DNA of 32,572 bases from Acidobacteriota bacterium (lineage in GTDB: Bacteria > Acidobacteriota > Vicinamibacteria > Vicinamibacterales > UBA8438): positions 25,500 through 58,071 of the forward strand of contig PBRZ01000030.1 of assembly GCA_002726085.1 (NCBI GenBank), written 5' to 3'. Positions 6,495-24,337 of the stretch are shown piece by piece. The notes beneath the pieces are model-generated. The model saw only the letters and a list, made by a program, of their open reading frames with translations, was not told the DNA's origin and ran no database searches. Every line of letters starts with the position of its first letter. Position 1 is the first letter of the stretch. The position numbers were made by a program, and so were the translations under genes.

Positions 6495-7082
6495 CTACAG
6501 CCTCAACGTCTCGGCGACCTCGGGAAACAGGATCTGGAGGAGTGACAGCCGCGACCGCTGCCGGTCGGCGAAGCCGGTGGCGCGCTCGTACCGCTGCAGG
6601 ATCGCGAGGGCGTCGGCCAGCGAGAGTTTCCGCGTGGCCTCGAATTCGACACAGCAGACCGACCGGGCGTCGGTCGTGGCGCGGTAGTGGACAACCTCGA
6701 CATCGGGGAAGCGCCACACGTCTAGATCCTTGTGGAGTGTGCCGCTCCATCGCACACCCAGATGGTCGAGAAACGCGTCGACCGCATCGCGCTGATCACC
6801 CGCATGTTGTCCGAGGTCGAGATTGATTTCAGATCGTACCTCGGTGTCGCTTGCGACCGTCTTCAGCGTCAAGTGATGCAGCTCTGCATCGTATCGATGG
6901 CGGATGACGAAATGTCCGTTCCGACCACCGTCGGTGAGGTAGTACCGATCTCGAACGCGGTGTGAGCTCGTTCTCGCCGGGTTCAGACGACCGAGCGCGT
7001 CGCGAAAACCCGCCAGGTCGAACTCCTCTTCGACGACGAACTTGTGCTCGATCTCCTTGAACCTCAGGTCGTCGGCTGTCAC
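6495..7082 (-). CDS. CYTH domain protein (triphosphate tunnel fold)
   Basis: 195 residues. The ExExK signature of CYTH enzymes is at Glu10, Glu12 and Lys14 (KEIEHKFVV). It is followed by alternating charged strands (VRDRYYLTD, FVIRHRYDAELHHLTLK, VRSEINLDL, CCVEFEATRKLSL) that line the triphosphate tunnel. Known members are class IV adenylyl cyclases, thiamine triphosphatases and inorganic triphosphatases; sequence alone does not choose between them. The gene ends 3 bases beyond the PQQ dehydrogenase stop (convergent) and begins 53 bases downstream of the PLD-like gene on the same strand, so the two probably share a transcript. Confidence 0.85.
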   Translation of the reverse strand: MTADDLRFKEIEHKFVVEEEFDLAGFRDALGRLNPARTSSHRVRDRYYLTDGGRNGHFVIRHRYDAELHHLTLKTVASDTEVRSEINLDLGQHAGDQRDAVDAFLDHLGVRWSGTLHKDLDVWRFPDVEVVHYRATTDARSVCCVEFEATRKLSLADALAILQRYERATGFADRQRSRLSLLQILFPEVAETLRL

Positions 7083-7135
7083 CTGGTCATCCTCTCGTCT
7101 TGACCGCCGTGCGCGTGGCGGTCACCTGACGGGTC

Positions 7136-8287
7136 TCACATCCACCGCTTGAACCGACCGATCACGGCGCGGCGAACTTTCAGCATGCGCGGCAGACTGT
7201 GAAGGAACCGGTCGCTTACACGCTCATTGTGTGGATCGCGCCGTAGCTCGTCGAAGATCGACGTGGCGTGCGCGATGGCGCGACCGTCGTGGGTAGCGAG
7301 CATCGCCTCGGCCAGCCGGTCGTGAGCAGCGTCCTCGAAGTTGTAGCTACCGAAGGCGACCCAGGTGTCGTCGACCAGCACGATCTTCGAGTGCTCGCCG
7401 CGACGGTTTTCGTACACTTCGATCCCGGCGTCCAGCAACCGCTCGTAGCTCACGGCGGCGGCAATCCACGCCAGGTCGGTGGCAGGCAGCGCGTCTCGGT
7501 GCGAATGGTACACTTCCACCTGTACTCCGCGGCGGGCCGCCCCGATCAGCGCCGTCATCAGCGACTCGACAGGCTTGAAGTAGAAGCTGGTCAGCCGGAC
7601 GGTGTCCCGGGCACCGTCGAGCATGTCGACGATCCGGTCGGTCACCTCGTTGCGCCCTCGCCACCCGAGCGGCCCCCAACGACCCTGGTGCGTATTCGGG
7701 TTGCACAGCCAGTAGTCCAGCGCTATGTCGTCCGGCGTGTCCGATCGGACTCCGTCAAGCTGCCGCAGGTGGTCATCATCGATCGAACCGCCAATCGCGC
7801 GATAGCTCTCGAACAAGGTTCGCACGACCGGTCCGCGGACCGAGACCGAAAACTCGTTCCAGCCCTCGAAGGAGGACTTCGTGATGTTGCTGCTGCCGAA
7901 GATTGCCTCGCCTACCTCGGACACCTGGATCTTGACATGCTGGCCTCCGCCCAGCCGTCGCTGGAGGAAATATCTCGGCTCATAGAACGCCACAACGGCC
8001 CCGGCATGGCGCAGCTCGTCCAGGCGGGCCACAAGCGCCGCCTGGGTGTCGCGTGTCATCAACACCCCGCCCAGGCGCTGGCCGAACTTGTCCACGAGGA
8101 GGTTGACCGCGACGCCCCGACGCTGAGCCTCGAGCAGGGACGCCAGGAGCTCGACGCCGTACCGGTCGTACTCGATGTAGTAGGTCGAGAGATACAGAAA
8201 GCGCTGTGCCTCCCGGATCATGGCGAGACGGCACGCCCACTCGTCCGCACGGTCCCAGAGCGGACGCAGGAAGGAGGCGGTAGGCAT
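7136..8287 (-). CDS. Phospholipase D-like / cardiolipin-synthase-like protein with two HKD motifs
   Basis: 383 residues with two PLD half-sites. The C-terminal motif is canonical (His299, Lys301, Asp306 in EHSKIVLVD, then FGSYNF). The N-terminal one has His117 and Lys119 but Glu124 where Asp is usual (QHVKIQVSE, then FGSSNI). No membrane helix is visible, unlike classical cardiolipin synthases with their N-terminal membrane segments, so it is likely cytosolic or peripheral. Family chemistry is phosphodiester transfer or hydrolysis through a phospho-histidine; the substrate could be lipid or nucleic acid. The ATG at 8287 is the only good start. It precedes the CYTH gene by 53 bases in the same direction. 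Confidence 0.87.
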   Translation of the reverse strand: MPTASFLRPLWDRADEWACRLAMIREAQRFLYLSTYYIEYDRYGVELLASLLEAQRRGVAVNLLVDKFGQRLGGVLMTRDTQAALVARLDELRHAGAVVAFYEPRYFLQRRLGGGQHVKIQVSEVGEAIFGSSNITKSSFEGWNEFSVSVRGPVVRTLFESYRAIGGSIDDDHLRQLDGVRSDTPDDIALDYWLCNPNTHQGRWGPLGWRGRNEVTDRIVDMLDGARDTVRLTSFYFKPVESLMTALIGAARRGVQVEVYHSHRDALPATDLAWIAAAVSYERLLDAGIEVYENRRGEHSKIVLVDDTWVAFGSYNFEDAAHDRLAEAMLATHDGRAIAHATSIFDELRRDPHNERVSDRFLHSLPRMLKVRRAVIGRFKRWM

Positions 8288-9535: not shown

Positions 9536-10348
9536 TTACGCAGGCCGACGAGCAACCCACACCTGCTCGGTCGCGGTCGTCTCCGCGAACGGCGTGCTAT
9601 GGAAATCGCCAAAGCAAGCTTCGATCGCGAACCCGGTGTCTTGGAGCAGCCGCCGAGCCTGGGGCGGTTCCAGCCAGCTCAGACTCAACCGGCGATAGCG
9701 GCGCCGGTCCAGGTGGCCGACTGCGTCGAGCTCGTCCTCCCAGGTGACGACCGTCATCGACTGGGAGGGCTCGTCCACCAGCGATGTCACCCACAACAAC
9801 ATGTCCACGCCCGCCGTCGACCGATATGCCGCTCGAAGCTGCACTTGCCGCATGTGAGCCATGAGGGCCGGTGTCATGAGGAAATCATCGAAGACGAATC
9901 GTCCGCCTGGACGCACGTGGGCAAAGATATGACGCATCGCCTGACGCTTGTCGTCGAGCGTCAACAAGTGCCCGATGCTGTGATACGGGAGAGCGATGAG
10001 GCCTGCTGGCTCCTCGAGCTCGAAGTCGCGGAAGTCCGCCTCGACCAGCGTGATCTGGTCGGTGACTCCCGCCCGCTGAGCCCGCTGCCGGCAGAGCGCG
10101 AGCATCGCTGGCGACGCATCCACACCGATCACGTGGCAGCCCTGTACCGCCGCCTCGACCGCGACACGACCATCCCCCACCCCCAGCTCGACGACCGGGC
10201 CATCGGCTGCCGCATACGCGTCGACGTAGAACGCGAGGTTCGCGCGGGTCGACCGAGCCGTGTCGCTCCAGACGGCGTAGATGTCGGCGAAGCTGTCGTA
10301 CTCGGAGCCGGTTCCAGCGGCCGGGGTGAGTGTGTCGGACGACGACAT
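9536..10348 (-). CDS. Class I SAM-dependent methyltransferase
   Basis: 270 residues. Motif I VVELGVGDGRVAVEAA (about 52-67), the acidic end of strand 2 (VIGVDASPAMLALCR), motif around DFRDFELEEPAGLIALPYHSIGH and post-motif RPGGRFVFDDF define a Rossmann methyltransferase. The N-terminus (EYDSFADIYAVWSDTARS) is like small-molecule methyltransferases of the 'YdaC/BioC-like' type. No substrate motif is visible. It is the first gene of a minus-strand run continuing into folB and the SDR. A divergent response-regulator gene starts 180 bases away. Confidence 0.85.
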   Translation of the reverse strand: MSSSDTLTPAAGTGSEYDSFADIYAVWSDTARSTRANLAFYVDAYAAADGPVVELGVGDGRVAVEAAVQGCHVIGVDASPAMLALCRQRAQRAGVTDQITLVEADFRDFELEEPAGLIALPYHSIGHLLTLDDKRQAMRHIFAHVRPGGRFVFDDFLMTPALMAHMRQVQLRAAYRSTAGVDMLLWVTSLVDEPSQSMTVVTWEDELDAVGHLDRRRYRRLSLSWLEPPQARRLLQDTGFAIEACFGDFHSTPFAETTATEQVWVARRPA

Positions 10349-10528: not shown

Positions 10529-11962
10529 ATGAAGATACTTGTCGTGGATGACGATCCGGGCAGCCGGATCATGCTCAAGCGCCTCTTGACGCGTGACTTC
10601 GACTGTCGGGTCACCGAGGCCGAGAACGGTCTGGAAGCCCTGGCGCGCCTCGACGAGGAACACTTCTCGGCGCTGTTGCTCGACCTGTACATGCCGGTCA
10701 TGGGGGGACTCGAGACCCTGGAGATGATCCGGCAGTCCGCCCATAGTTCTCTGCCGGTGCTCATCATGACCGCCGAACGCGGAGAGGCCATGGTGAAGCG
10801 GGCGGTCGCGTTGGGCATCACCGACTACCTGGTCAAGCCGCTCAAGCCGAATCAGACCAGTGCGCGGCTCGCCCAAGCGCTGCAGACCCTGCGTCTGAGC
10901 TCGGCCGGACAGTCCGATGCCGACAGCGAACCGGTCACGGTGGATGAGCGCCTCGTCGTACTGGTCGCTGAGGGCGACCCGGATTACCGGTGTTTTCTGA
11001 TGGATTTCTTCAGACCCCGCTGCACGGCGCTGGAGGCCTCGACAGGCGCCGACGCCTTGACGCTTTGCCTCCAGGAGACGCCGGGGCTGGTGTTCGTCGG
11101 CGGGGAGCTGGGGATCATCGACGCGGAAACCCTGGTTCAGAAGGTCCGCGGCATGAGCGCGTTGTCCACCACGCGGGTCATCGCGACCGTCCCGAGAAGC
11201 CGAATCGCCGAGACCAAGGCGCGGGGCGCGTATGACGGGGTGATCGCCTGTTCGTTTGTGCGGGACGTCTTCCTTGATCAATTCGAACGATTGACCGTCT
11301 TGACCGGCCGACCGGCGCAAGCGCTCGAGCGAATCTTTCCACGCTTCAGGATGGGTCTGATTGCGGCGACCGAAAAGGTCTGCGACATAACGCTGACCGC
11401 CAACGTCGAGGTGGACCCGGAGCTGGCGCAGGTCACCGGCGAGACCCTGGCAGCGACGATGCTGCTCACCCCACCCGAGCACCAGATGACCGTCGAGGTC
11501 ACGCTACAGCTGCAACCCGACGTTGCCGACGCGGTGACACGACGGATGGGGGACTACGCGGAGGACCGGCCGTTCACCGACGAGGACCGGACCGAGACGT
11601 TGAGTGAGCTCCTCAAGATGATTCTCGGGCGGGTGCAGAACACGCTTGCCGAACATGGAGTGCCCTCCGAGATCGGGCCTTCCGAGACCGGTCGGCGACA
11701 GGCGCCAGTGGCCACCGACGAGACGGGGGCCATCATGACGTTCAAGACCGAGGACGGGCTACGGTTCGACCTCATCGCCGTCGCCCGCAAGCTGTTGAAC
11801 AGCGACGCCGCGAAGCTCCGGCCATACCATTGGGCTGACAAGAACTTCAAAGCGACGAGCTGCGGCGAGCCTTCCTCGGGGACCGAGCATGGTCGAACCT
11901 TGGGAATCGGCAAGCTGCTGGACCGGCTCTGGCCCTCGGCAAAGCCGAAGGCCGCGGCATAG
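10529..11962 (+). CDS. Response regulator: REC + degenerate REC + CheX-like domain
   Basis: 477 residues. Residues 1-120 form a complete receiver: acidic pocket Asp7-Asp9, phospho-acceptor Asp52 (LLLDLYMP), Thr81 and Lys103 (YLVKPL). Residues ~143-260 look like a second receiver (RLVVLVAEGDPDYRCFL) but the acceptor site reads VFVGGEL without Asp, so it should not be phosphorylated. Residues ~270-385 resemble the CheC/CheX phosphatase fold (RMGLIAATEKVCDITL, then a helix SELLKMILGRVQN). In CheX the ExxN pair is catalytic; here it is Glu360 with Lys363 in place of Asn. The start at 10529 follows gagaagga (10511-10518); an open frame upstream is antisense to the methyltransferase and is not coding. 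The next gene begins 9 bases after the stop. Confidence 0.8.
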   Translation: MKILVVDDDPGSRIMLKRLLTRDFDCRVTEAENGLEALARLDEEHFSALLLDLYMPVMGGLETLEMIRQSAHSSLPVLIMTAERGEAMVKRAVALGITDYLVKPLKPNQTSARLAQALQTLRLSSAGQSDADSEPVTVDERLVVLVAEGDPDYRCFLMDFFRPRCTALEASTGADALTLCLQETPGLVFVGGELGIIDAETLVQKVRGMSALSTTRVIATVPRSRIAETKARGAYDGVIACSFVRDVFLDQFERLTVLTGRPAQALERIFPRFRMGLIAATEKVCDITLTANVEVDPELAQVTGETLAATMLLTPPEHQMTVEVTLQLQPDVADAVTRRMGDYAEDRPFTDEDRTETLSELLKMILGRVQNTLAEHGVPSEIGPSETGRRQAPVATDETGAIMTFKTEDGLRFDLIAVARKLLNSDAAKLRPYHWADKNFKATSCGEPSSGTEHGRTLGIGKLLDRLWPSAKPKAAA

Positions 11963-11971
11963 TTACAGATC

Positions 11972-12784
11972 GTGAGGATGCGGGCGTTTCGCGCCGTTGC
12001 CGGCCTGCTCCCGATTGTCGGGCTGCTCCTGGGTTGCGGTTCTGGTGGATCGAATGCATCCAACCCGATCAGCCCCTCCGGCTCGATTGACCAAGCCGCC
12101 ATGCCGACGAGCCCTTTTGGAGCAAGCTGGGAATTCAACGGACAGACCTGGCGAGCGATCGGCACACCACCCGCGTGTCCCTTCCCGCTGACCTTCATCA
12201 CGCCGATCAATCTGGCGAGAGTCACGTCGGTGCTCTACCCAGGCAATATCCGGTCTGGCGATTACAGACCGCATGGGGGGTTTCGTCTCGACGGTCCAGG
12301 CGAAACCGGCGCCATCTCCGTTGTCGCGCCGATGGCGTCGACCGTGTACCGCGCCGCGCGCTACCTCGTCAACGGTGAAGTGCAGCACATGTTCGATTTC
12401 ATCAACGCCTGCGGCATTCTGCATCGTCTGGACCACCTGCGCGACTTGTCGCCGCGGTTCCAACAGATCGCCGCGTCGCTGCCACCGGCGGCTGAAGTGG
12501 ACTCACGTACCACGCTTGTCGCACCGGGACAAACCGTGTCGGCTGGCGAGACAATCGCGACCAGTGTCGGCTTCCTCTCGGGCAACGTCTTCGTTGATTG
12601 GGGTGTCTACGATCTACGGACCCAGAACGAATCGAGCGCAAACCCGAGCTGGCTGGCCCAACACCCAGGCGAGTTCGCCGCATACGCCATCTGCTGGTTT
12701 GACAATCTCTCCCCCGGAGACAGCGCCAGGGTCCGGAGCCTGCCCCCCTCTGGCGGCCAGGGAGCGAGTGACTATTGCTTCTAG
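11972..12784 (+). CDS. Lipoprotein with degenerate M23 (LytM-like) peptidase domain
   Basis: 270 residues from a GTG at 11972, or 268 from the ATG at 11978; neither has a clear ribosome site. The signal peptide ends LLLGC (Cys22), predicting lipidation. The middle resembles an M23/LytM fold: 'YRPHGGFRLDG' (His101, Asp107), 'VVAPMASTVYRA', 'GILHRLDHLRDL' (His151, His155) and 'VAPGQTVSAGETIATS'. In M23 enzymes the first metal pair is H-x3-D and the last motif HxH; here the Asp is two residues too far and the final motif reads NVFVDWGVYD. The enzyme is therefore probably inactive, like EnvC/NlpD-type domains. It lies 9 bases after the response regulator and may be cotranscribed. Confidence 0.65.
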   Translation: MRMRAFRAVAGLLPIVGLLLGCGSGGSNASNPISPSGSIDQAAMPTSPFGASWEFNGQTWRAIGTPPACPFPLTFITPINLARVTSVLYPGNIRSGDYRPHGGFRLDGPGETGAISVVAPMASTVYRAARYLVNGEVQHMFDFINACGILHRLDHLRDLSPRFQQIAASLPPAAEVDSRTTLVAPGQTVSAGETIATSVGFLSGNVFVDWGVYDLRTQNESSANPSWLAQHPGEFAAYAICWFDNLSPGDSARVRSLPPSGGQGASDYCF

Positions 12785-15157: not shown

Positions 15158-15507
15158 TGACTAGCAAGTCTCCGAAGGCAGACGTCTGGCAAGGCACCTT
15201 GGCGTTGATGGTCCTCAAGACCCTCGAGGCCCTGGGGCCACTGCACGGCTACGGCGTGGCCCGCCGTATCGAGCAGACCAGCGACCATCTCCTGGCCATC
15301 AACTACGGCACGCTCTACCCCCAGCTGATGAAGCTCGAGCAGGAAGGCTACATCGGCGGGGAGTGGGGCGTGTCGGAGAACGGCCGTAAGGCCAAGTTCT
15401 ACAAACTCACACGAGCCGGGCGCCGGCAGCTCGCGCGGGCGACCGAGGACTGGGCGCAGGCCAACGCCATCCTCGCGAAGTTCCTGGCGTCAAAGGAGAC
15501 CGGATGA
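15157..15507 (+). CDS. PadR family transcriptional regulator (padR1), ADOP-associated
   Basis: 116 residues. The N-terminal winged helix has the acidobacterial PadR signature: QGTLALMVLKTLEALGPLHGYG, ARRIEQTS, then the recognition segment INYGTLYPQLMKLEQEGYI, the wing GRKAKFYKLTRAGRRQL and a short dimerisation helix. Such regulators (TIGR03433 type) precede ADOP permeases. The start at 15157 is chosen because it gives the normal family length; the frame extends upstream to 15010 without homology. The TGA overlaps the ATG of ADOP1 at 15504 (ATGA), so regulator and permease are translationally coupled. The target is likely its own promoter; the inducer is unknown. Confidence 0.9.
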   Translation: MTSKSPKADVWQGTLALMVLKTLEALGPLHGYGVARRIEQTSDHLLAINYGTLYPQLMKLEQEGYIGGEWGVSENGRKAKFYKLTRAGRRQLARATEDWAQANAILAKFLASKETG

Positions 15508-18210
15508 ACCGTGTTCGAGCGTGGATCACGCGACTGGTCAACGTGTTGCGCAGGGGGCGCCAGGAGAACGAGCTCGACGCCGAGCTGCAAGCCCACCTGG
15601 AATTGCACATAGACGAGAACCTGCGCGGCGGGATGAGCCCGGCAGAGGCGCGGCGGGTGGCGCACGCTCGGCTGGGCGGCGTCGATCAGGTCAAGGAGCG
15701 GTGCCGCGAGACAAACCTGCTGCGCTGGCTGGGCGGGTCCTGGCTGGACGTCAAGTTGGGCCTCCGCATGCTGCGCAAGTCCTGGGGCCTGACGTTGGTC
15801 GGCGGCCTGGCGATGACGCTCGTGATCGGGATTGGCGCGGGCATTTTCGCAGCCGTCGACATGATGGTTTGGGGAAAGCTGCCCCTGGACGACGGCGACC
15901 GGGTGGTGGCCATACAGACCTGGGATGCGGCGGCGCACCGACGACACGACACGTCGCTGCTCGACTTCGAGCGGTGGCGCGACGATCTGCAGTCGGTGGA
16001 GGACATCGGCGCGTTCCAGACGGTCGAACGCAGCCTGGTCACGACTGACGGGCCGACCGAGTCGGTGTCCATTGCCGAGATGACGGCGTCCGGATTCCAG
16101 CTGGCGCGTGTCCCGCCACTCCTGGGGCGACCGCTTCTCGAAGAAGACGAGCGCGACGACGCCGACCCGGTCGTGGTGATCGGTTACGATGTGTGGCAGT
16201 CGCGGTTTGCGGCCGACCCGGCGGTGGTGGGGCAGACGGTTCGTCTCGGCGGCACGATCCACACCGTGGTCGGCGTCATGCCGGAGGACTTCGCGTTCCC
16301 ATTGAACTACCGTTTCTGGGCGCCACTTCGGGCGGACCGGTCGGGTGATCTGCGGGACGCGGGACCATCCGGCGTCGTCTTCGCCCGACTCGCTCCCGGC
16401 GTCACGTTGGAGGGCGCCCAGGCCGAGCTGACGACGCTCGGATTGCTGCCCTCCGCGAGCGTTCCGGAGACCGACGAACAGCTCCACCCGCGCGCGGTCC
16501 CGTACGCGTTCGCATTTACCGGCGACTTCGAACAAGGGGAGGTTGCTTGGGTGATCCGCCTCATCCTGTTCCTGGTCACCCTGCTCCTCGTCCCCCCTGT
16601 GCAAACATCGCCATCCTGGTCTACGCTCGAACTGTCACACGCTAGGAAGAGTTCGCGGCGCGTCATGCATTGGGCGCGAGCCGTGGCCGCATCGTCGGGC
16701 AGCTCTTCATCGAGGTGCTCGTCCTGGCAGCGGGAGCCACCGGCGTGGCGCTTGTGCTGGTTCGCGAGGGCATCGCGAGAGTGCAGCGCTTCCTGGGGCC
16801 TGAATTACGCGACGGCGCCCCATTCTGGTGGGACTTCACGCTCTCGTTCAGAACGATCCTCTTCGCCGCCGGACTCGCCGTCGTCGCCGCCACGATCGCG
16901 GGTGCCGTGCCGGCTCTCAAAGCGACCGGACGCCGTATCAATCGGGCCTCGGTAGGCTGGGCAGTCGCACGAGCATGCAGCTTGGCGCGACGTGGACCGT
17001 GCTTGTCGTGGCCCAGGTCGCCTTCTCCATGGCCGCCCTACCCGTGGCAGTGGAAATGGCCTATGGAACGGTCCGGTCCGGCATCCTGGGACCCGGCTTC
17101 GCGGCCGAGGAGTACCTGACGGCCCGGGTCATGATGGACCGGGAGACACCGTCGAGCACCGAGGTTGACGCCGAGGCCGGACCGCGCCCGTTCGCCTCTC
17201 GCTTCGGATCCCTTCAGACCGAGCTGGTCCGACAGCTCGAAGCCGAGCCCGAGGTCCTGGCGGTGACAGTGGCGGCGGCAGTGCCCAACGAGGCGCGGCA
17301 GAGGTTCGTCGAGGTCGATGACGTCTCTGCGCCGGAAGAGTCCGTCTTCACGGGCAATCACCTGATCCGATCCCTTCCGGTGGACGACGTCTTCTTCGAC
17401 GTCTACGACCTCCCTCTGCTGACCGGCCGTGGGTTCAACGCCGGAGACTTCGAGCCCGCGCGAGCCGCCGTCGTCGTGAACCGGACCTTTGTGCAGACTC
17501 TACTGGGAGACGGGAACCCGCTCGGCCGCCGCATCCGCTACTTCAACACGGAAAACCCGGACGCTCCGGCGGGTTCGGAGCAGCGCTGGCATGAGATCGT
17601 CGGAGTCGTCGACGACCTTTTTGCGGACACACGCCGGGGCACGATGTTTCATCCCGCGGAGCCTGGACAGATCCACCCGGCGACCTTCGCTTTACGCGTG
17701 GGGTCAAACTCTGCCGGCGTGACGAGCCGGCTCCGGGAGATCACCGCGGCGCTCGACCCGGGCCTGCGCGTGGACGAGGTTCGCTCACTTGATGAGATCC
17801 ACCGCCAGCACCAGGAGGGGAATTACCTCGGCGCGTCCGCTCTGACAGCGGTCACGCTCAGCGTTCTCCTGCTGTCGGCAGCCGGCATGTATGCGCTCAT
17901 GTCCTTCACGGTCAACCAGCGGCGCCGGGAAATCGGCATCCGGTCGGCGCTGGGGGCGCAACCACGCCGCCTCCTGGCGGGCATCTTCAGACGCGCAGCA
18001 GGGCAACTCGCGGTCGGGACCGTCCTCGGCATCCTGGTCGCGACGCTTCTGGATCACTATGTGCCAGCCGAGGAGGCGGGTGGCTGGAACATCCCAGGCG
18101 CTATCCCCGCGGCGGCGACGCTCATGATGGCGCTAGGTCTGTTCGCGGCGCTCGGACCGGCCCGTCGCGGCCTCCGGGTCGAACCGACCGAAGCGCTGCG
18201 GGACTGGTAG
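15504..18210 (+). pseudogene. ADOP permease 1 (MacB/FtsX-like), broken by two frameshifts and a nonsense codon
   Basis: Aligned by eye with the intact paralogues at 18413 and 21626, the full-length gene can be followed across three frames. It starts MNRVRAWITRL with the permease prefix domain, TM1 (WGLTLVGGLAMTLVIGIGAG) and the MacB periplasmic core. At the C-run 16592-16597 one base is missing relative to the paralogues, moving the frame. In the restored frame (CANIAILVYART) a TAG at 16643-16645 stands where ADOP2 and ADOP3 have CAG (Gln in RQEEF). A second single-base loss at 16944-16946 (GGG run) moves the frame again into GSRTSMQLGATW, after which the FtsX C-terminus is intact to 18210. 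Both deletions are in homopolymers, so sequencing error is possible, but the nonsense codon between them favours real decay. Confidence 0.88.
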
Positions 18211-18412: not shown

Positions 18413-21160
18413 ATGGCGACGCTCATTCACGTGGTGATGGCACGCATCCGTGGCGCCTTTCGTTCGGGCGATCTCGAAGATGACTTCGACCAGGAGCTGA
18501 CGGCCCACCTGGCGATGGCGGAAGCGGACAAGATGCGGCGCGGGATGACCCGGGAAGAGGCCAGGCGGGTCGCACGTGTGGAGCTGGGCGGACTGACGCA
18601 ACTCCGAGAGGCGAGTCGCGCGGCACGCGGCCTGCCGTGGCTCGGCACCCTCTGGCTGGACGTGAAGCTGGGCGTGCGCATGCTACGCAAGTCCTGGGGG
18701 CTGACGCTGGTTGGGGGCCTCGCGATGACGATCGTGATCGCGATCGCCGCCGGTGCATTCGGCTTCCTTCAGGTGCTCTTCGGGAGCCGGGTGCCGCTGG
18801 ACGACGGTGACCGGGTCGTGGCCCTGCAGACCTGGGACGCGGCAAGGGGCCGCCCGCACGGTACTGCGCTGCCCGACTTCGAGCGGTGGCGCGACACGGT
18901 GCGGTCGGTCACCGACGTCGGCGCGTTCCGGACGGTGAGACGCAGGCTGGTCACCGGGGTCGTCCCGGCGCCAGCTGTGCTGGCGGACGGCACCGAGCCG
19001 CTGGTGTCGATCGCCGAGATGACCGCGTCGGGCTTCCAACTGGCTCGAGTGGCGCCGCTACTGGGACGGCGGCTCGTCAGGGATGACGAGCGGCCTAGCG
19101 CGATTCCAGTCGTGGTGATCGGCTACGACGCGTGGCAATCGCGGTTCGCCGCCGATCCGGAAGTGGTGGGACGGCGCGTGCGATTGGACGACTCGGTCCA
19201 CACCGTGGTCGGAGTCATGCCGGAGGACTTCGCGTTTCCGGTGGCCCACCGTTTCTGGACTCCGCTCCGCGCGGGCTCGTCCGACGATCCGCTGGACCAG
19301 GGGCCGAACGTTGTCGTCTTTGGCCGCCTCGCACCCGGCATCACGCGGGAAGGTGCTCAGTCCGAGCTGACGACCATCGGGCTGCTCCCCGCCGCCGACG
19401 ATCTGGAGCCTACGGCCCAACTCCAGCCTCGGATCGCGCCATATCCGCGGGCGTTCGGCGCCAACATCGAGCCCTGGATGGCCGGCCTCATCGTCTTCCT
19501 GGTCAGCCTGCTCCTCGCCCCGCCGTGCGCAAACATCGCCATCCTGGTCTATGCCCGCACCATCACCCGTCAGGAGGAGTTTTCCACCCGCTATGCGTTG
19601 GGTGCGAGCCGTGGCCGCATTGTCGGTCAGCTCTTCGTCGAGGCCCTCGTCCTCGCGTCTGCGGCAGCCGGTGTCGCGCTCATGCTGGTGCACCTGTCCT
19701 TTCGACGGGTGGAATTCAGCACGAGTTACAGTCCCGGCACTTCCCCCTTTTGGATGGACTTCAGCCTGTCGCCCATGATGGTGCTCTTCGCCGCGGGGCT
19801 CGCGCTGTTCGCCGCCGCGATCGCCGGTCTCGTGCCAGCCCTCCAGGCGACCGGGCGGCTGATGCAGGCCGGGCTCCACGCGTTGGGGAGCCGCACACGC
19901 ATGCAACTCGGTGCGACCTGGACCGCGCTTGTCGTCGCTCAGGTTGCTCTCGCGCTGGCGGTGCTGCCATCGGCGGCCGAGCTGGCATGGGGGTTGCTGC
20001 GGCCGGGCATCCTGGGTCCAGGATTCGCGGCAGAAGAGTTCCTGACGGCCCGGCTCAAGTTGGACCAGGGGATACTGCTCAGCGGGGGAGCCAACCGCCG
20101 CGCTGCCGGCGCACGCTTCGCCGACCTCCAAGCCGAGTTGGTGCGACAGCTCGAAGCCGAGCCTGGTGTTCTGGGCGTGAGTGTGACGGCGGCTGTGCCC
20201 GGCAACCTCGACCAGCGGGGAGCGCTCGTCGAGATCGATGGCGTGCCGTCGCGCACGATCAGCTTGAGCTCCGGTCACGAAGTCACGTTCCTTCCGGTGG
20301 ACGACGCGCTGTTCGACCTGTTCGACACGCCGCTCCTGGCGGGCCGCCTCTTCGATGCCAGCGACGTGGCTCCAGAGCAAGCCACGGTGATCATCAACCG
20401 GACCTTCGCGCAAGACATTCTCACCCTGAGCGACCGTAATCCCCTGGGTCTACGGGTCCGCTACTTTCGAGGGCAAGGCATTGCACGAAATGGGAGCGCC
20501 AGCAGGAACAGCGGCCAGACGGCTGAATTGGGCCCCTGGTATGAAATCGTCGGGGTCGTGGATGACCTCCCCGCCAACACGAACACACACTGGATGTATC
20601 ACCTCCTGGTCCCCGAACAGATGCGCTTGGTGACACTGGCGCTACGACTGGATGCGAGACACGCCGACCTCACGGCTCGGCTCCGGGAGATGACAGCCGC
20701 GTTGGATCCGGCGCTGCGTGTAGACCAGATCCGTCCGCTCGATGAGTTCTACCTGCAGCAAAGCGAGTTCAGCATTGCGGGGGCCTTCGCACTGGCGGTG
20801 GTCACGCTGAGCGTCCTGCTGCTCTCAGCGGCCGGCCTGTACGCGCTGATGGCGTTCACCGTCAACCAGCGCCGTCGCGAAATCGGAATCCGATCGGCGT
20901 TGGGGGCCCAACCGCAGCGGCTCCTTGTCGGCATCTTCCGCCGGGCGCTGGGCCAGGTCGCGATCGGGGCCCTTGTCGGCCTGCTGATGGCGTTCGTCCT
21001 CAGCAAGTACCTGATGATCGAAGAATTGGGCGGCTGGGCCGTTCCGGGTGTGGTTCCGGCCGCAGCGATCTTCATGCTCGGCGTCGGCCTTCTCGCGGCC
21101 GTCGGACCAGCCCGTCGCGGGCTCAACATCGAACCGACTGAGGCACTGCGAGACGGCTAG
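18413..21160 (+). CDS. ADOP permease 2 (acidobacterial duplicated orphan permease)
   Basis: 915 residues. Order: cytoplasmic permease prefix helix bundle (1-90, with FDQELTAHLAMAEADK and EEARRVARVELGG), TM1 (about 95-120), a large MacB-type periplasmic domain (LPDFERWRDTVRSV, ASGFQLARVAPLLGRRL, VVIGYDAWQSRFAADPEVVG, VVGVMPEDFAFP), FtsX helices (WMAGLIVFLVSLLL, EEFSTRYALGASRGRIVGQL), a second periplasmic domain and a C-terminal FtsX domain ending LNIEPTEALRDG. No ATPase gene is nearby, as usual for TIGR03434-type proteins; how they are energised is not known. Unlike its neighbours it lacks an adjoining padR gene and has its own promoter at 18302. It resembles ADOP3 closely from the first residue, indicating tandem duplication. 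Confidence 0.93.
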   Translation: MATLIHVVMARIRGAFRSGDLEDDFDQELTAHLAMAEADKMRRGMTREEARRVARVELGGLTQLREASRAARGLPWLGTLWLDVKLGVRMLRKSWGLTLVGGLAMTIVIAIAAGAFGFLQVLFGSRVPLDDGDRVVALQTWDAARGRPHGTALPDFERWRDTVRSVTDVGAFRTVRRRLVTGVVPAPAVLADGTEPLVSIAEMTASGFQLARVAPLLGRRLVRDDERPSAIPVVVIGYDAWQSRFAADPEVVGRRVRLDDSVHTVVGVMPEDFAFPVAHRFWTPLRAGSSDDPLDQGPNVVVFGRLAPGITREGAQSELTTIGLLPAADDLEPTAQLQPRIAPYPRAFGANIEPWMAGLIVFLVSLLLAPPCANIAILVYARTITRQEEFSTRYALGASRGRIVGQLFVEALVLASAAAGVALMLVHLSFRRVEFSTSYSPGTSPFWMDFSLSPMMVLFAAGLALFAAAIAGLVPALQATGRLMQAGLHALGSRTRMQLGATWTALVVAQVALALAVLPSAAELAWGLLRPGILGPGFAAEEFLTARLKLDQGILLSGGANRRAAGARFADLQAELVRQLEAEPGVLGVSVTAAVPGNLDQRGALVEIDGVPSRTISLSSGHEVTFLPVDDALFDLFDTPLLAGRLFDASDVAPEQATVIINRTFAQDILTLSDRNPLGLRVRYFRGQGIARNGSASRNSGQTAELGPWYEIVGVVDDLPANTNTHWMYHLLVPEQMRLVTLALRLDARHADLTARLREMTAALDPALRVDQIRPLDEFYLQQSEFSIAGAFALAVVTLSVLLLSAAGLYALMAFTVNQRRREIGIRSALGAQPQRLLVGIFRRALGQVAIGALVGLLMAFVLSKYLMIEELGGWAVPGVVPAAAIFMLGVGLLAAVGPARRGLNIEPTEALRDG

Positions 21161-21625: not shown

Positions 21626-24337
21626 ATGGCGACCCTGTTTCGTGTCGTGCTGGCACGCATACGCGCCTGCTTTCGCTCGGGCGATCTCGACCGCGACTTC
21701 GACCAGGAGCTGGCCACGCATCTGACCATGGCGGAAGACGACAAGCGTCGACGCGGCATGACACGGGCACAAGCCCGGCGGGAAGCTCGCGTGGAGCTGG
21801 GGGGCGTGACCCAGCTGCGAGAAGCCAGCCGCGCGGCACGCGGCCTGCCGTGGCTTGGCACGTTCTGGCTGGACGTGAAGCTGGGCATCCGCATGCTACG
21901 CAAGTCGTGGGGGCTGACGCTGGTTGGGGGTCTGGCGATGACGGTCATGATCGCGATCGCCGGGGGCGCTTTCAGCTTCTTCGACACCGCCTTCAGAAGT
22001 CAGCTGCCACTGGACGAGGGCGACCGGGTCGTGGCGCTCATGACCTGGGATGCGGAGACGAACCGGCGGCGGAGCCCATCGCTTCCCGACCTCGAGCGCT
22101 GGCGCGAGGAGGCCCGTTCGCTGGAGGACATCGGCGGGGTCCAGACTATCGAGCAAGGCCTGGCCATCGCGGACGGTCCGGCCGAACCGGTGGCCGTCGC
22201 CCAGATGACCGCGTCCGGATTTCAGCTGGCGCGCGTGCCGCCGCTGCTGGGCCGCCCGCTCGTCGCGGAGGATGAGCGCGACGACGCCGCTCCGGTGGTG
22301 GTGATCGGTCACGAGGCGTGGCGCACAAGGTTCGCTTTCGACCCTTCCTTGGTCGGACGACAAGTTCGGCTCGACCGCACACTGCATACCGTGGTCGGCG
22401 TCATGCCGGAGGGTTTCGCGTTCCCTGTGAACCATCGTTTCTGGACACCGCTTCGGGTCGACCCGTCGCGCTATGCGAGGAACGCCGAGCCGGCGGTGTT
22501 CGGCTTTGCCCGGCTCGCGCCCGACGCCACGCTGGCGGGCGCCCAGGCTGAGCTTGCGACCCTCGGCGTACTGCCGCCGGTCACCGTGACAGAGACCGAC
22601 GAGCAGCTCCATCCCAGAGTGGCGCCCTATTCGCTCGCGCTGGTCAGCACCGGTGAGGAGAACCTACCGGTGTTCGCCGGTCTCGTCCTGCTGATCGTCA
22701 CGTTGCTGATGGTGCCGCCCTGCGCGAATGTCGCCATCCTGGTCTACGCCAAGACCGTTGCGCGGCAGGAGGAGTTCGCCACACGGTACGCCCTCGGCGC
22801 GAGCCGCGGCCGCATCGTCGCCCAGCTCTTCGTCGAGATGCTCCTGCTCGCGACAGGGGCCGCGGGCGTTGCGCTCGTGGTCGTGCGCCTGACCGGCGAG
22901 TACCTCCAGAGCATCATCACCATGACCAATGGGGTCCCCTTCTGGTTCGACTTCGGCAACCTCTCCATCGGGACCGTGCTCTTTGCCGCCGGACTGGCCG
23001 CGCTTGCCGCCACCTTAGCGGGTGTCGTGCCGGCTCGGCGGGCTACCGCCCGTCTCATGCAGTCTGGGCTCCGAGCGCTGGGGGGGCGCACCGGTATGCA
23101 GCTCGGCACGACCTGGACGGCCCTGGTCGTCGCCCAGGTCGCCTTCTGTCTGGCGATCTTACCGGTCGCCGCGGAACTGGCCTGGGGCACCCTTCGACCC
23201 AGCATCCTGGGACCCGGGTTCGCCGCCGATGAATTCCTGACCGCCCGGCTCGCCTTGAACGAAGTCCCGCGGACACGGCCAAGTCTTGAGATCGACGTCC
23301 CTGTGCGCCCGATCGCCTCCCGCTTCGCGGACCTCCAGGGCGAGCTTGGCCAGCGCCTGGAGAGCGAACCCGGCATCTCAGCGCTGACCGTCTCGGCGAC
23401 CATGCCCGGCAGCGAGCCGTGGGCCATCGTCGAGCTCGACGGGGTCAGTGCCCTCCAGCCGCCAGGCGGCGGCCCGATCGACGACTCGGACATCACGGTC
23501 TTGTTCAATCGGGTGGACGACGTTTTCTTCGACACCTTCGAAGTGCCTCTCCTGGCCGGCCGTGGCTTTTCGGCCGACGACTTCGCACTTGGGCGCACTG
23601 CGGTCATTGTCAACCGGATGTTTGCCCAGCAGATTGTCGGTGACGGCCCGCCGTTGGGTCGCCGGATTCGCTACGTCCGGTCGGCGGCCGGGTCCAGCTC
23701 TGAATCGGACCCTTGGTATGAAATCGTCGGGGTCGTGGATGACCTCCCGGCCAACACGTACAGACGCCGGCTGTATCATCCGATGGCCCCGGGCGAGGTG
23801 AACCCGGTGAGTATCGCTCTACGCGCTGGGCCCACCTCGGCCAACACGGCGGCGCGCGTTCGAGAGTTGACGACGGCGCTGGACCCGGCCCTGCGAGTGG
23901 ACGAGCTCAGGCCGCTGGACGAGGTCTACCTCCAGTACCAACGCGGCAACAACATCGGGGCCTACATGCTCGCGGCAGTGGCGGTGAGCGTACTCCTTCT
24001 CTCGGCGGCCGGTATGTACGCGTTGATGTCCTTCACTGTCGCTAGACGTCGGCGGGAGATCGGCATCCGGACAGCACTGGGGGCGCAACCGACTCGCCTG
24101 CTGGCGGGCATCTTCAAGCGCGCGCTGACCCAGGTCGCGGTCGGGGCCGGTGCCGGCGCTCTTGCAGCGCGTCTTCTCGGCATCTACCTGCCAATCGAGG
24201 AAATGGGCGGCTGGAGCGTCCCAGGCATCCTCCCCGCCGCCGCGACGCTCATGGTCGTGGTGGCGGCATTCGCCGCGATCGGACCGGCCCGTCGCGGCCT
24301 CCGAATCGAACCGACCGAAGCGCTACGAGACGGCTAG
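21626..24337 (+). CDS. ADOP permease 3 (acidobacterial duplicated orphan permease)
   Basis: 903 residues with the same domain order as ADOP2: prefix domain (FDQELATHLTMAEDDKRRRGM), TM1 (WGLTLVGGLAMTVMIAIAGG), MacB periplasmic core (SLPDLERWREEARSL, ASGFQLARVPPLLGRPL, VVGVMPEGFAFPVNHRF), central FtsX helices (EEFATRYALGASRGRIVAQL), a second periplasmic domain and the C-terminal FtsX domain (RRRREIGIRTALGAQPTRLL) ending LRIEPTEALRDG. It is intact and directly follows padR2. A 7-base inverted repeat (ggcgggc 24337-24343 / gcccgcc 24363-24369) lies just beyond the stop, without a T run. Transport substrate and energy source are unknown for the family; antimicrobial or lipoprotein traffic is only an analogy to MacB and LolC. 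Confidence 0.93.
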   Translation: MATLFRVVLARIRACFRSGDLDRDFDQELATHLTMAEDDKRRRGMTRAQARREARVELGGVTQLREASRAARGLPWLGTFWLDVKLGIRMLRKSWGLTLVGGLAMTVMIAIAGGAFSFFDTAFRSQLPLDEGDRVVALMTWDAETNRRRSPSLPDLERWREEARSLEDIGGVQTIEQGLAIADGPAEPVAVAQMTASGFQLARVPPLLGRPLVAEDERDDAAPVVVIGHEAWRTRFAFDPSLVGRQVRLDRTLHTVVGVMPEGFAFPVNHRFWTPLRVDPSRYARNAEPAVFGFARLAPDATLAGAQAELATLGVLPPVTVTETDEQLHPRVAPYSLALVSTGEENLPVFAGLVLLIVTLLMVPPCANVAILVYAKTVARQEEFATRYALGASRGRIVAQLFVEMLLLATGAAGVALVVVRLTGEYLQSIITMTNGVPFWFDFGNLSIGTVLFAAGLAALAATLAGVVPARRATARLMQSGLRALGGRTGMQLGTTWTALVVAQVAFCLAILPVAAELAWGTLRPSILGPGFAADEFLTARLALNEVPRTRPSLEIDVPVRPIASRFADLQGELGQRLESEPGISALTVSATMPGSEPWAIVELDGVSALQPPGGGPIDDSDITVLFNRVDDVFFDTFEVPLLAGRGFSADDFALGRTAVIVNRMFAQQIVGDGPPLGRRIRYVRSAAGSSSESDPWYEIVGVVDDLPANTYRRRLYHPMAPGEVNPVSIALRAGPTSANTAARVRELTTALDPALRVDELRPLDEVYLQYQRGNNIGAYMLAAVAVSVLLLSAAGMYALMSFTVARRRREIGIRTALGAQPTRLLAGIFKRALTQVAVGAGAGALAARLLGIYLPIEEMGGWSVPGILPAAATLMVVVAAFAAIGPARRGLRIEPTEALRDG

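Follow-up and report, generated by a model that had tools for sequence, protein, structure and literature searches.

The 477-residue protein encoded at positions 10529–11962 (+) of the window (the whole 32,572-nucleotide stretch analysed, from Acidobacteriota bacterium contig PBRZ01000030.1, GCA_002726085.1, order Vicinamibacterales) is, on the profile and alignment evidence below, a derived member of an order-level, motility-linked family with the domain order receiver, pseudo-receiver and CheX. We give about even chances to the view that it is a motility-type regulator kept in a genome without detected motility genes, its CheX domain acting as a pseudophosphatase that binds a phosphorylated receiver.

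Gene and domain organization

The coding sequence begins with the ATG at 10529. The same open frame continues in the 5' direction as far as 9440; a start at that position was rejected because the upstream part runs antisense to a methyltransferase gene (9536–10348, minus strand), which leaves 10529 as the sensible start. The features of the gene are as follows.

10529–10894 (+), residues 1–122: REC1, phospho-acceptor receiver (PF00072, E 1.2e-29)
10895–10948 (+), residues 123–140: linker (dN/dS 1.8 on very few sites; low pLDDT over 122–138)
10949–11302 (+), residues 141–258: REC2, pseudo-receiver (family alignments; lowest dN/dS among the domains, 0.086)
11303–11788 (+), residues 259–420: CheX-like domain, profile match 274–418 (PF13690 below cut-off; relatives-only profile 68.6 bits)
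11606–11617 (+), within the preceding domain: ExxN motif position, E360-L-L-K363 (GAG 11606–11608, AAG 11615–11617; alignments)
11789–11962 (+), residues 421–477 and stop: C-terminal extension (alignment; dN/dS 0.61)

This layout bears out the three parts proposed in the first-pass annotation, namely a live receiver with Asp52, an Asp-less second receiver and a CheX domain with ELLK for ExxN. The protein spans positions 1–428 of the three-domain family profile (of which it is one of the 20 rows), and among the 20 aligned rows the C-terminal extension is complete only in this protein and in the copy from a sister genome, G001.

A lipoprotein-like ORF (11972–12784) begins 9 bases past the stop codon. 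It had been described as a degenerate M23 lipoprotein gene; the spacing is as stated, the M23 match is very weak (E 0.21) and no conserved link to the regulator was found. Among 60 genomes searched, the ORF is present in full only in its own, which makes it an improbable partner, and a functional operon was dismissed. The sister genome contains a 37-residue match with an internal stop, and is weak as an adjacency test, being 74% complete and having a regulator contig that ends 71 bases after the last sense codon, where adjacency is not visible. Further along the window, two ORFs (15504–16955, with MacB_PCD, and 16828–18210, with MacB_PCD and FtsX) overlap in different frames and look like a single permease of ~900 residues split by a frameshift; after them, at 18413–21160 and 21626–24337, come two relatives that are intact, with 915 and 903 residues.

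The two receiver domains

REC1 gives a clear match to the Pfam Response_reg family, and its active-site set is complete (Asp7/Asp8, Asp52 at 10682–10684, Thr81 and Lys103). The phospho-acceptor aspartate is kept in 34 of the 35 three-domain proteins assembled here, the exception having Glu, and Lys103 is likewise kept in 34 of 35. The Glu-bearing member (L088, genome G159) retains ExxN and could possess a permanently 'on' receiver.

Two stand-alone receivers are encoded elsewhere in the same genome (L002, 1492–1884 (−) on contig C119, and L003, 1465–1857 (−) on contig C78). They share 54% and 60% identity with REC1, group with REC1 of the host genus in a quick tree (SH-aLRT 99) and, by reading, retain the Asp and the Lys; no remnant of REC2 or CheX was found behind either of them. 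These receivers would be candidate phospho-partners of the window protein in trans. Their grouping suggests that, in the host lineage, REC1 was either copied out of the three-domain gene or built into it.

The second receiver-like domain (residues 141–258) has no Pfam match. Gly191 (11099–11101) occupies the position of the phospho-acceptor aspartate and, in a weak AF2 model, closes the third strand of REC2 as Asp52 does in REC1. The absence of Asp noted in the first-pass annotation stands; the residue is Gly in 35 of 35 three-domain members, making it a hallmark of the family and no peculiarity of this protein. Residue 241, assigned by reading to the position of the receiver lysine, is Arg in 32 of the 35, Cys in two (including Cys241 of the window protein) and Trp in one. 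With a receiver position that lacks the phospho-acceptor Asp and is conserved as such, REC2 is a pseudo-receiver, and the presence of Gly in all 35 second receivers makes a clear case of a conserved one.

The CheX domain and its motif

The Pfam CheX profile PF13690 alone gives 21.1 bits (E 3.2e-4) in the whole protein, 22.7 bits (E 1e-4) on residues 273–477 and 24 bits in the genome search, none of which reaches the curated threshold of 27. When the profile is instead made from 12 relatives, leaving out the window protein and its 90%-identical sister copy, residues 274–418 score 68.6 bits, against 10.5 bits for the best of 2000 shuffles of residues 259–477. A 14-row profile that includes the window protein matches eight PDB chains at E < 0.001 (3hm4, 3iic, 6vpw, 3h4y, 3h2d, 3hzh, 1squ and 1xko, ranging from E 3e-10 for 3hm4 to 3e-4 for 1xko), which carry the names CheX, CheC-type or putative chemotaxis protein. 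The alignment with 3hm4 places its ExxN onto that of the three-domain family, and each of the 14 rows gives a PF13690 match at E ≤ 1 (best 5e-10). Since the relatives-only score lies far above the shuffles and is accompanied by the PDB and PF13690 profile matches, the assignment of residues 259–420 as CheX is secure at the level of sequence.

Comparison of predicted structure with CheX neither supports nor contradicts this assignment. The AF2 models, made from three-row alignments, are weak (pLDDT 53 and 57, the latter for the CheX domain), and a Foldseek search of the CheX-domain model against the PDB gave nothing at E ≤ 0.001 and no CheX in the best 50 of 908 rows. The matches listed, among them cGAS, OAS1, Rel, TdT and dioxygenases, have query TM-scores no higher than 0.45 and were set aside as noise from a poor model.

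In the alignments, E360-L-L-K363 falls on the ExxN/ElaN columns of the relatives, with the acidic residue kept and Lys (codon AAG, 11615–11617) at the Asn position. The first-pass annotation had proposed a CheC/CheX-like domain with Lys363 for the catalytic Asn, and had asked whether the conserved Asn might be placed elsewhere; the alignment confirms the substitution, and the motif column of the window protein is without Asn. The sister genome, which is 93% identical in DNA to the window over 9.2 kb, carries the same ELLK, so the substitution is not a sequencing error.

The best-known task of CheX-type phosphatases is to reset CheY. The available portion of one account (PMC3035606) describes Asn99 of CheX as orienting the attacking water and the acidic residue as forming a salt bridge to the receiver lysine and being required for wild-type activity. 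With the catalytic Asn absent, the CheX domain of the window protein is probably not a phosphatase. Hydrolysis could nevertheless persist if the chemistry came from Lys363, from some other residue or from an ExxN paralog joined with the protein in a hetero-oligomer. Both the window copy and its sister retain Glu360, and an ExxN paralog is also present in the sister genome, two facts that would fit such an activity; against it, the window gene is the sole CheX match in its own genome and the Asn amide is the water-orienting group in CheC, CheX and FliY alike, as far as the portion of PMC3035606 available describes them. We consider retained phosphatase activity improbable.

The three-domain family

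CheX profile matches occur in 38 of the 162 genomes of the order. From the profile-search hits, 40 regions were picked, which yielded 34 proteins matching all three domains, or 35 with the window protein. ExxN is intact in 22 of the 35 members and absent from 13. Its state changes at least nine times on the tree, in which ten of 32 inner branches are poorly supported. A same-genus paralog with EIGN groups with both ELLK copies (100/100), the ExxN and ELLK copies of the host genus being about 45% identical. Because 22 of the 35 members keep ExxN, the loss of Asn in the window copy looks derived, and losses of this kind have occurred more than once in the family.

The occurrence of REC1 and CheX on one chain in 35 members, which follows from how the set was constructed, raises the possibility of an intramolecular timer in which the CheX domain sets the lifetime of phosphorylated REC1 in the same chain. 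Such a timer is plausible for the 22 ExxN copies, but the window copy is without the catalytic Asn, and for this protein the idea is very doubtful. Of the two roles suggested in the first-pass annotation, the timer thus suits the ExxN relatives better than the window copy, and a phospho-controlled adaptor is the best guess for a domain whose catalytic Asn is absent.

A REC2–CheX search of the phylum gave matches in 365 of 396 genomes, mostly stretches with only a receiver or only CheX. Among the matches listed, the long ones across both domains belong to the same order; the search scored at most six candidates per genome, and rare members elsewhere could be missed. Candidates from outside the order that span the REC2–CheX junction come from G344 (L127) and G364 (positions 81–288, with a stop inside). 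The former was rejected as a family member, being by reading a receiver protein without CheX. No paper on a REC–REC–CheX protein was found among the best-ranked matches in the open-access literature.

Several relatives combine CheX with other signalling domains. An HPt domain stands behind CheX in L032 (1018–2715 (−), by reading) and in L103 (by profile), which suggests a phosphorelay within one chain; L103 and L083 are two-domain relatives. One ORF of L084 (6470–8437 (−)) carries CheX together with a histidine-kinase ATPase domain.

Genomic context and link to motility

Besides the gene itself, no chemotaxis gene was found among the 28 ORFs of the window scanned with Pfam. The earlier remark that no chemotaxis genes are nearby is therefore correct for the window, but it does not hold for the family. 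Ten neighbours of family genes scanned with Pfam comprise six histidine kinases (one each in L076, L082, L089 and L094 and two in L078), one REC–HPt protein (L080) and three unrelated proteins. A profile made from five of the neighbour kinases places a histidine-kinase-type ORF immediately beside the family gene in ten of 34 regions (L076, L078, L082, L086, L089, L091, L096, L097, L104 and L109); the L094 kinase seen by Pfam is missed by this profile. The family protein of L103 carries a fused HPt domain, as by reading does the second copy of L075, and HPt adjoins the family gene in L080, L081, L083 and L085; gene calls in these regions are heuristic and overlooked a few family genes. A CheY-sized receiver and a stand-alone CheX lie next door in L090, L091 and L093, and MotB is paired with MotA in L096 and also in L075 and L082, where the pair is followed by an HD_5 gene.

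By coordinates, a MotA_N or CheW domain is encoded within 15 kb of at least 13 of the 35 family genes (at least 11 of the 22 ExxN copies versus at least two of the 13 Asn-less copies). These counts are lower bounds, since many contigs are short and the CheW domains counted are those among the matches listed; neither domain was found within 15 kb of the other 22 genes. Across the order, FliM was detected in 43 of 162 genomes and co-occurs with the CheX profile in 31 (Fisher p 6e-17, kinship ignored), leaving 12 FliM genomes without a CheX match. Among the 23 genomes that contribute a three-domain protein to the assembled set, 19 have FliM (Fisher p 1e-9, kinship ignored); the carriers without a FliM match are the host (G000), its sister G001, G074 and G143. 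Since two ExxN copies are retained in G143, where FliM gave no match, and Asn-less copies occur in several genomes with FliM, loss of Asn does not simply follow the loss of flagella.

Host genome and selection

No FliM, MotA_N, CheW or HPt match was found in the host genome (88.65% complete, 5.64% contamination), and CheW was found in only one (G002) of the four genomes of the host genus. The sister genome (74% complete) encodes three family members, one with ELLK (contig C588), one with EIGN (C420) and a third, truncated where its contig stops, with a PAS/GAF histidine kinase directly upstream.

A structural role in the flagellar C-ring, in the manner of FliY or FliM, has in its favour that FliY belongs with CheC and CheX and that some FliY proteins lack phosphatase active sites, according to the portion of PMC6946799 available. 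The host, however, yields no FliM or MotA_N match, and the window protein has no SPOA domain, its Pfam matches at E ≤ 1 being confined to REC and CheX, so that we regard a C-ring role as barely credible.

The protein might instead be the relic of a lost swimming system, tolerated but drifting and now without a function. None of the 43 genomes with FliM, and only two of the 38 CheX-positive genomes, belong to the taxonomic family of the host, and G010, from another genus of that family, contains a decayed remnant of a family gene in two frames (L107, contig C41, about 7024–7451) in which no CheX part was detected. The ORF is, however, intact in two genomes at 93% DNA identity and keeps the phosphorylation residues of REC1. 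Comparison of the window and sister copies, a single pair, gives dN/dS of 0.28 overall, 0.26 for REC1, 0.086 for REC2, 0.26 for CheX and 0.61 for the tail, and these low values argue against a freely drifting relic, which we consider unlikely.

Proposed function

In the family at large, a histidine kinase or an HPt domain, as the neighbouring genes suggest, would phosphorylate REC1, the pseudo-receiver would provide a constant docking site and the CheX domain would dephosphorylate the aspartate of REC1 or that of another receiver acting as its partner. For the window protein, retention of Glu360 together with the change of Asn to Lys makes docking without hydrolysis the simplest expectation. 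On the pseudophosphatase reading, the likeliest one, the CheX domain would dock on a phosphorylated receiver with slow or absent hydrolysis, and the docked domain would read or shield the phospho-state. The receiver so bound is likely to be REC1 of the protein itself, in the same or another molecule, or else the pair of stand-alone REC1-type receivers that the genome encodes. We infer the loss of catalysis, the docking and the identity of the partner from sequence.

A bolder proposal, put forward tentatively, is that the Lys-bearing CheX domain clamps and stabilizes the phosphorylated receiver and so forms a new output module for response regulators, that this conversion has been repeated in the family and that here it outlived the motility machine to serve stand-alone REC1-type receivers in a non-swimming bacterium. 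Repeated loss of the catalytic Asn with the rest kept, and persistence of one member without detected motility genes, offer a test of how an enzyme becomes an adaptor, and one genus supplies, in its ExxN and ELLK copies, a natural pair for testing the change from terminating a signal to reading it.

Comparison with known systems

The closest counterparts are the three-domain relatives (L072, L075, L082 and others), which have the identical order of REC, pseudo-REC and CheX over their full length. In most of them ExxN is intact, kinase or motility genes are close to many, and the C-terminus of the window copy is longer. With CheX itself (PF13690; PDB 1squ, 1xko and 3hzh chain B) the protein shares the domain by profile, the E-x-x-(N) motif on a long helix and the acidic residue. 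It differs in being fused behind two receivers, in having Lys for Asn and in a host without detected chemotaxis genes.

Inactive members of the wider family are known, since FliY of Campylobacter, Helicobacter and Leptospira is described, in the available portion of PMC6946799, as lacking the phosphatase active sites. Like these proteins, the window protein has a CheC/CheX-type domain without such a site; FliY, in contrast, is a C-ring protein with a SPOA domain, whereas the window protein has receivers and its host is without detected flagellar genes. REC2 may be likened to the pseudo-receiver of FrzS from Myxococcus xanthus, a receiver without the phospho-acceptor Asp that serves as a recognition module (PMC1974792, abstract); in that description of FrzS there is no mention of a CheX domain or of another receiver. 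Fusions of CheA with CheC/CheX in Leptospirae, as reported in the accessible part of PMC10542144, likewise place a CheX-type domain in another signalling protein, but that protein is a kinase and not a response regulator; the CheX and kinase ATPase ORF of L084 recalls these fusions.
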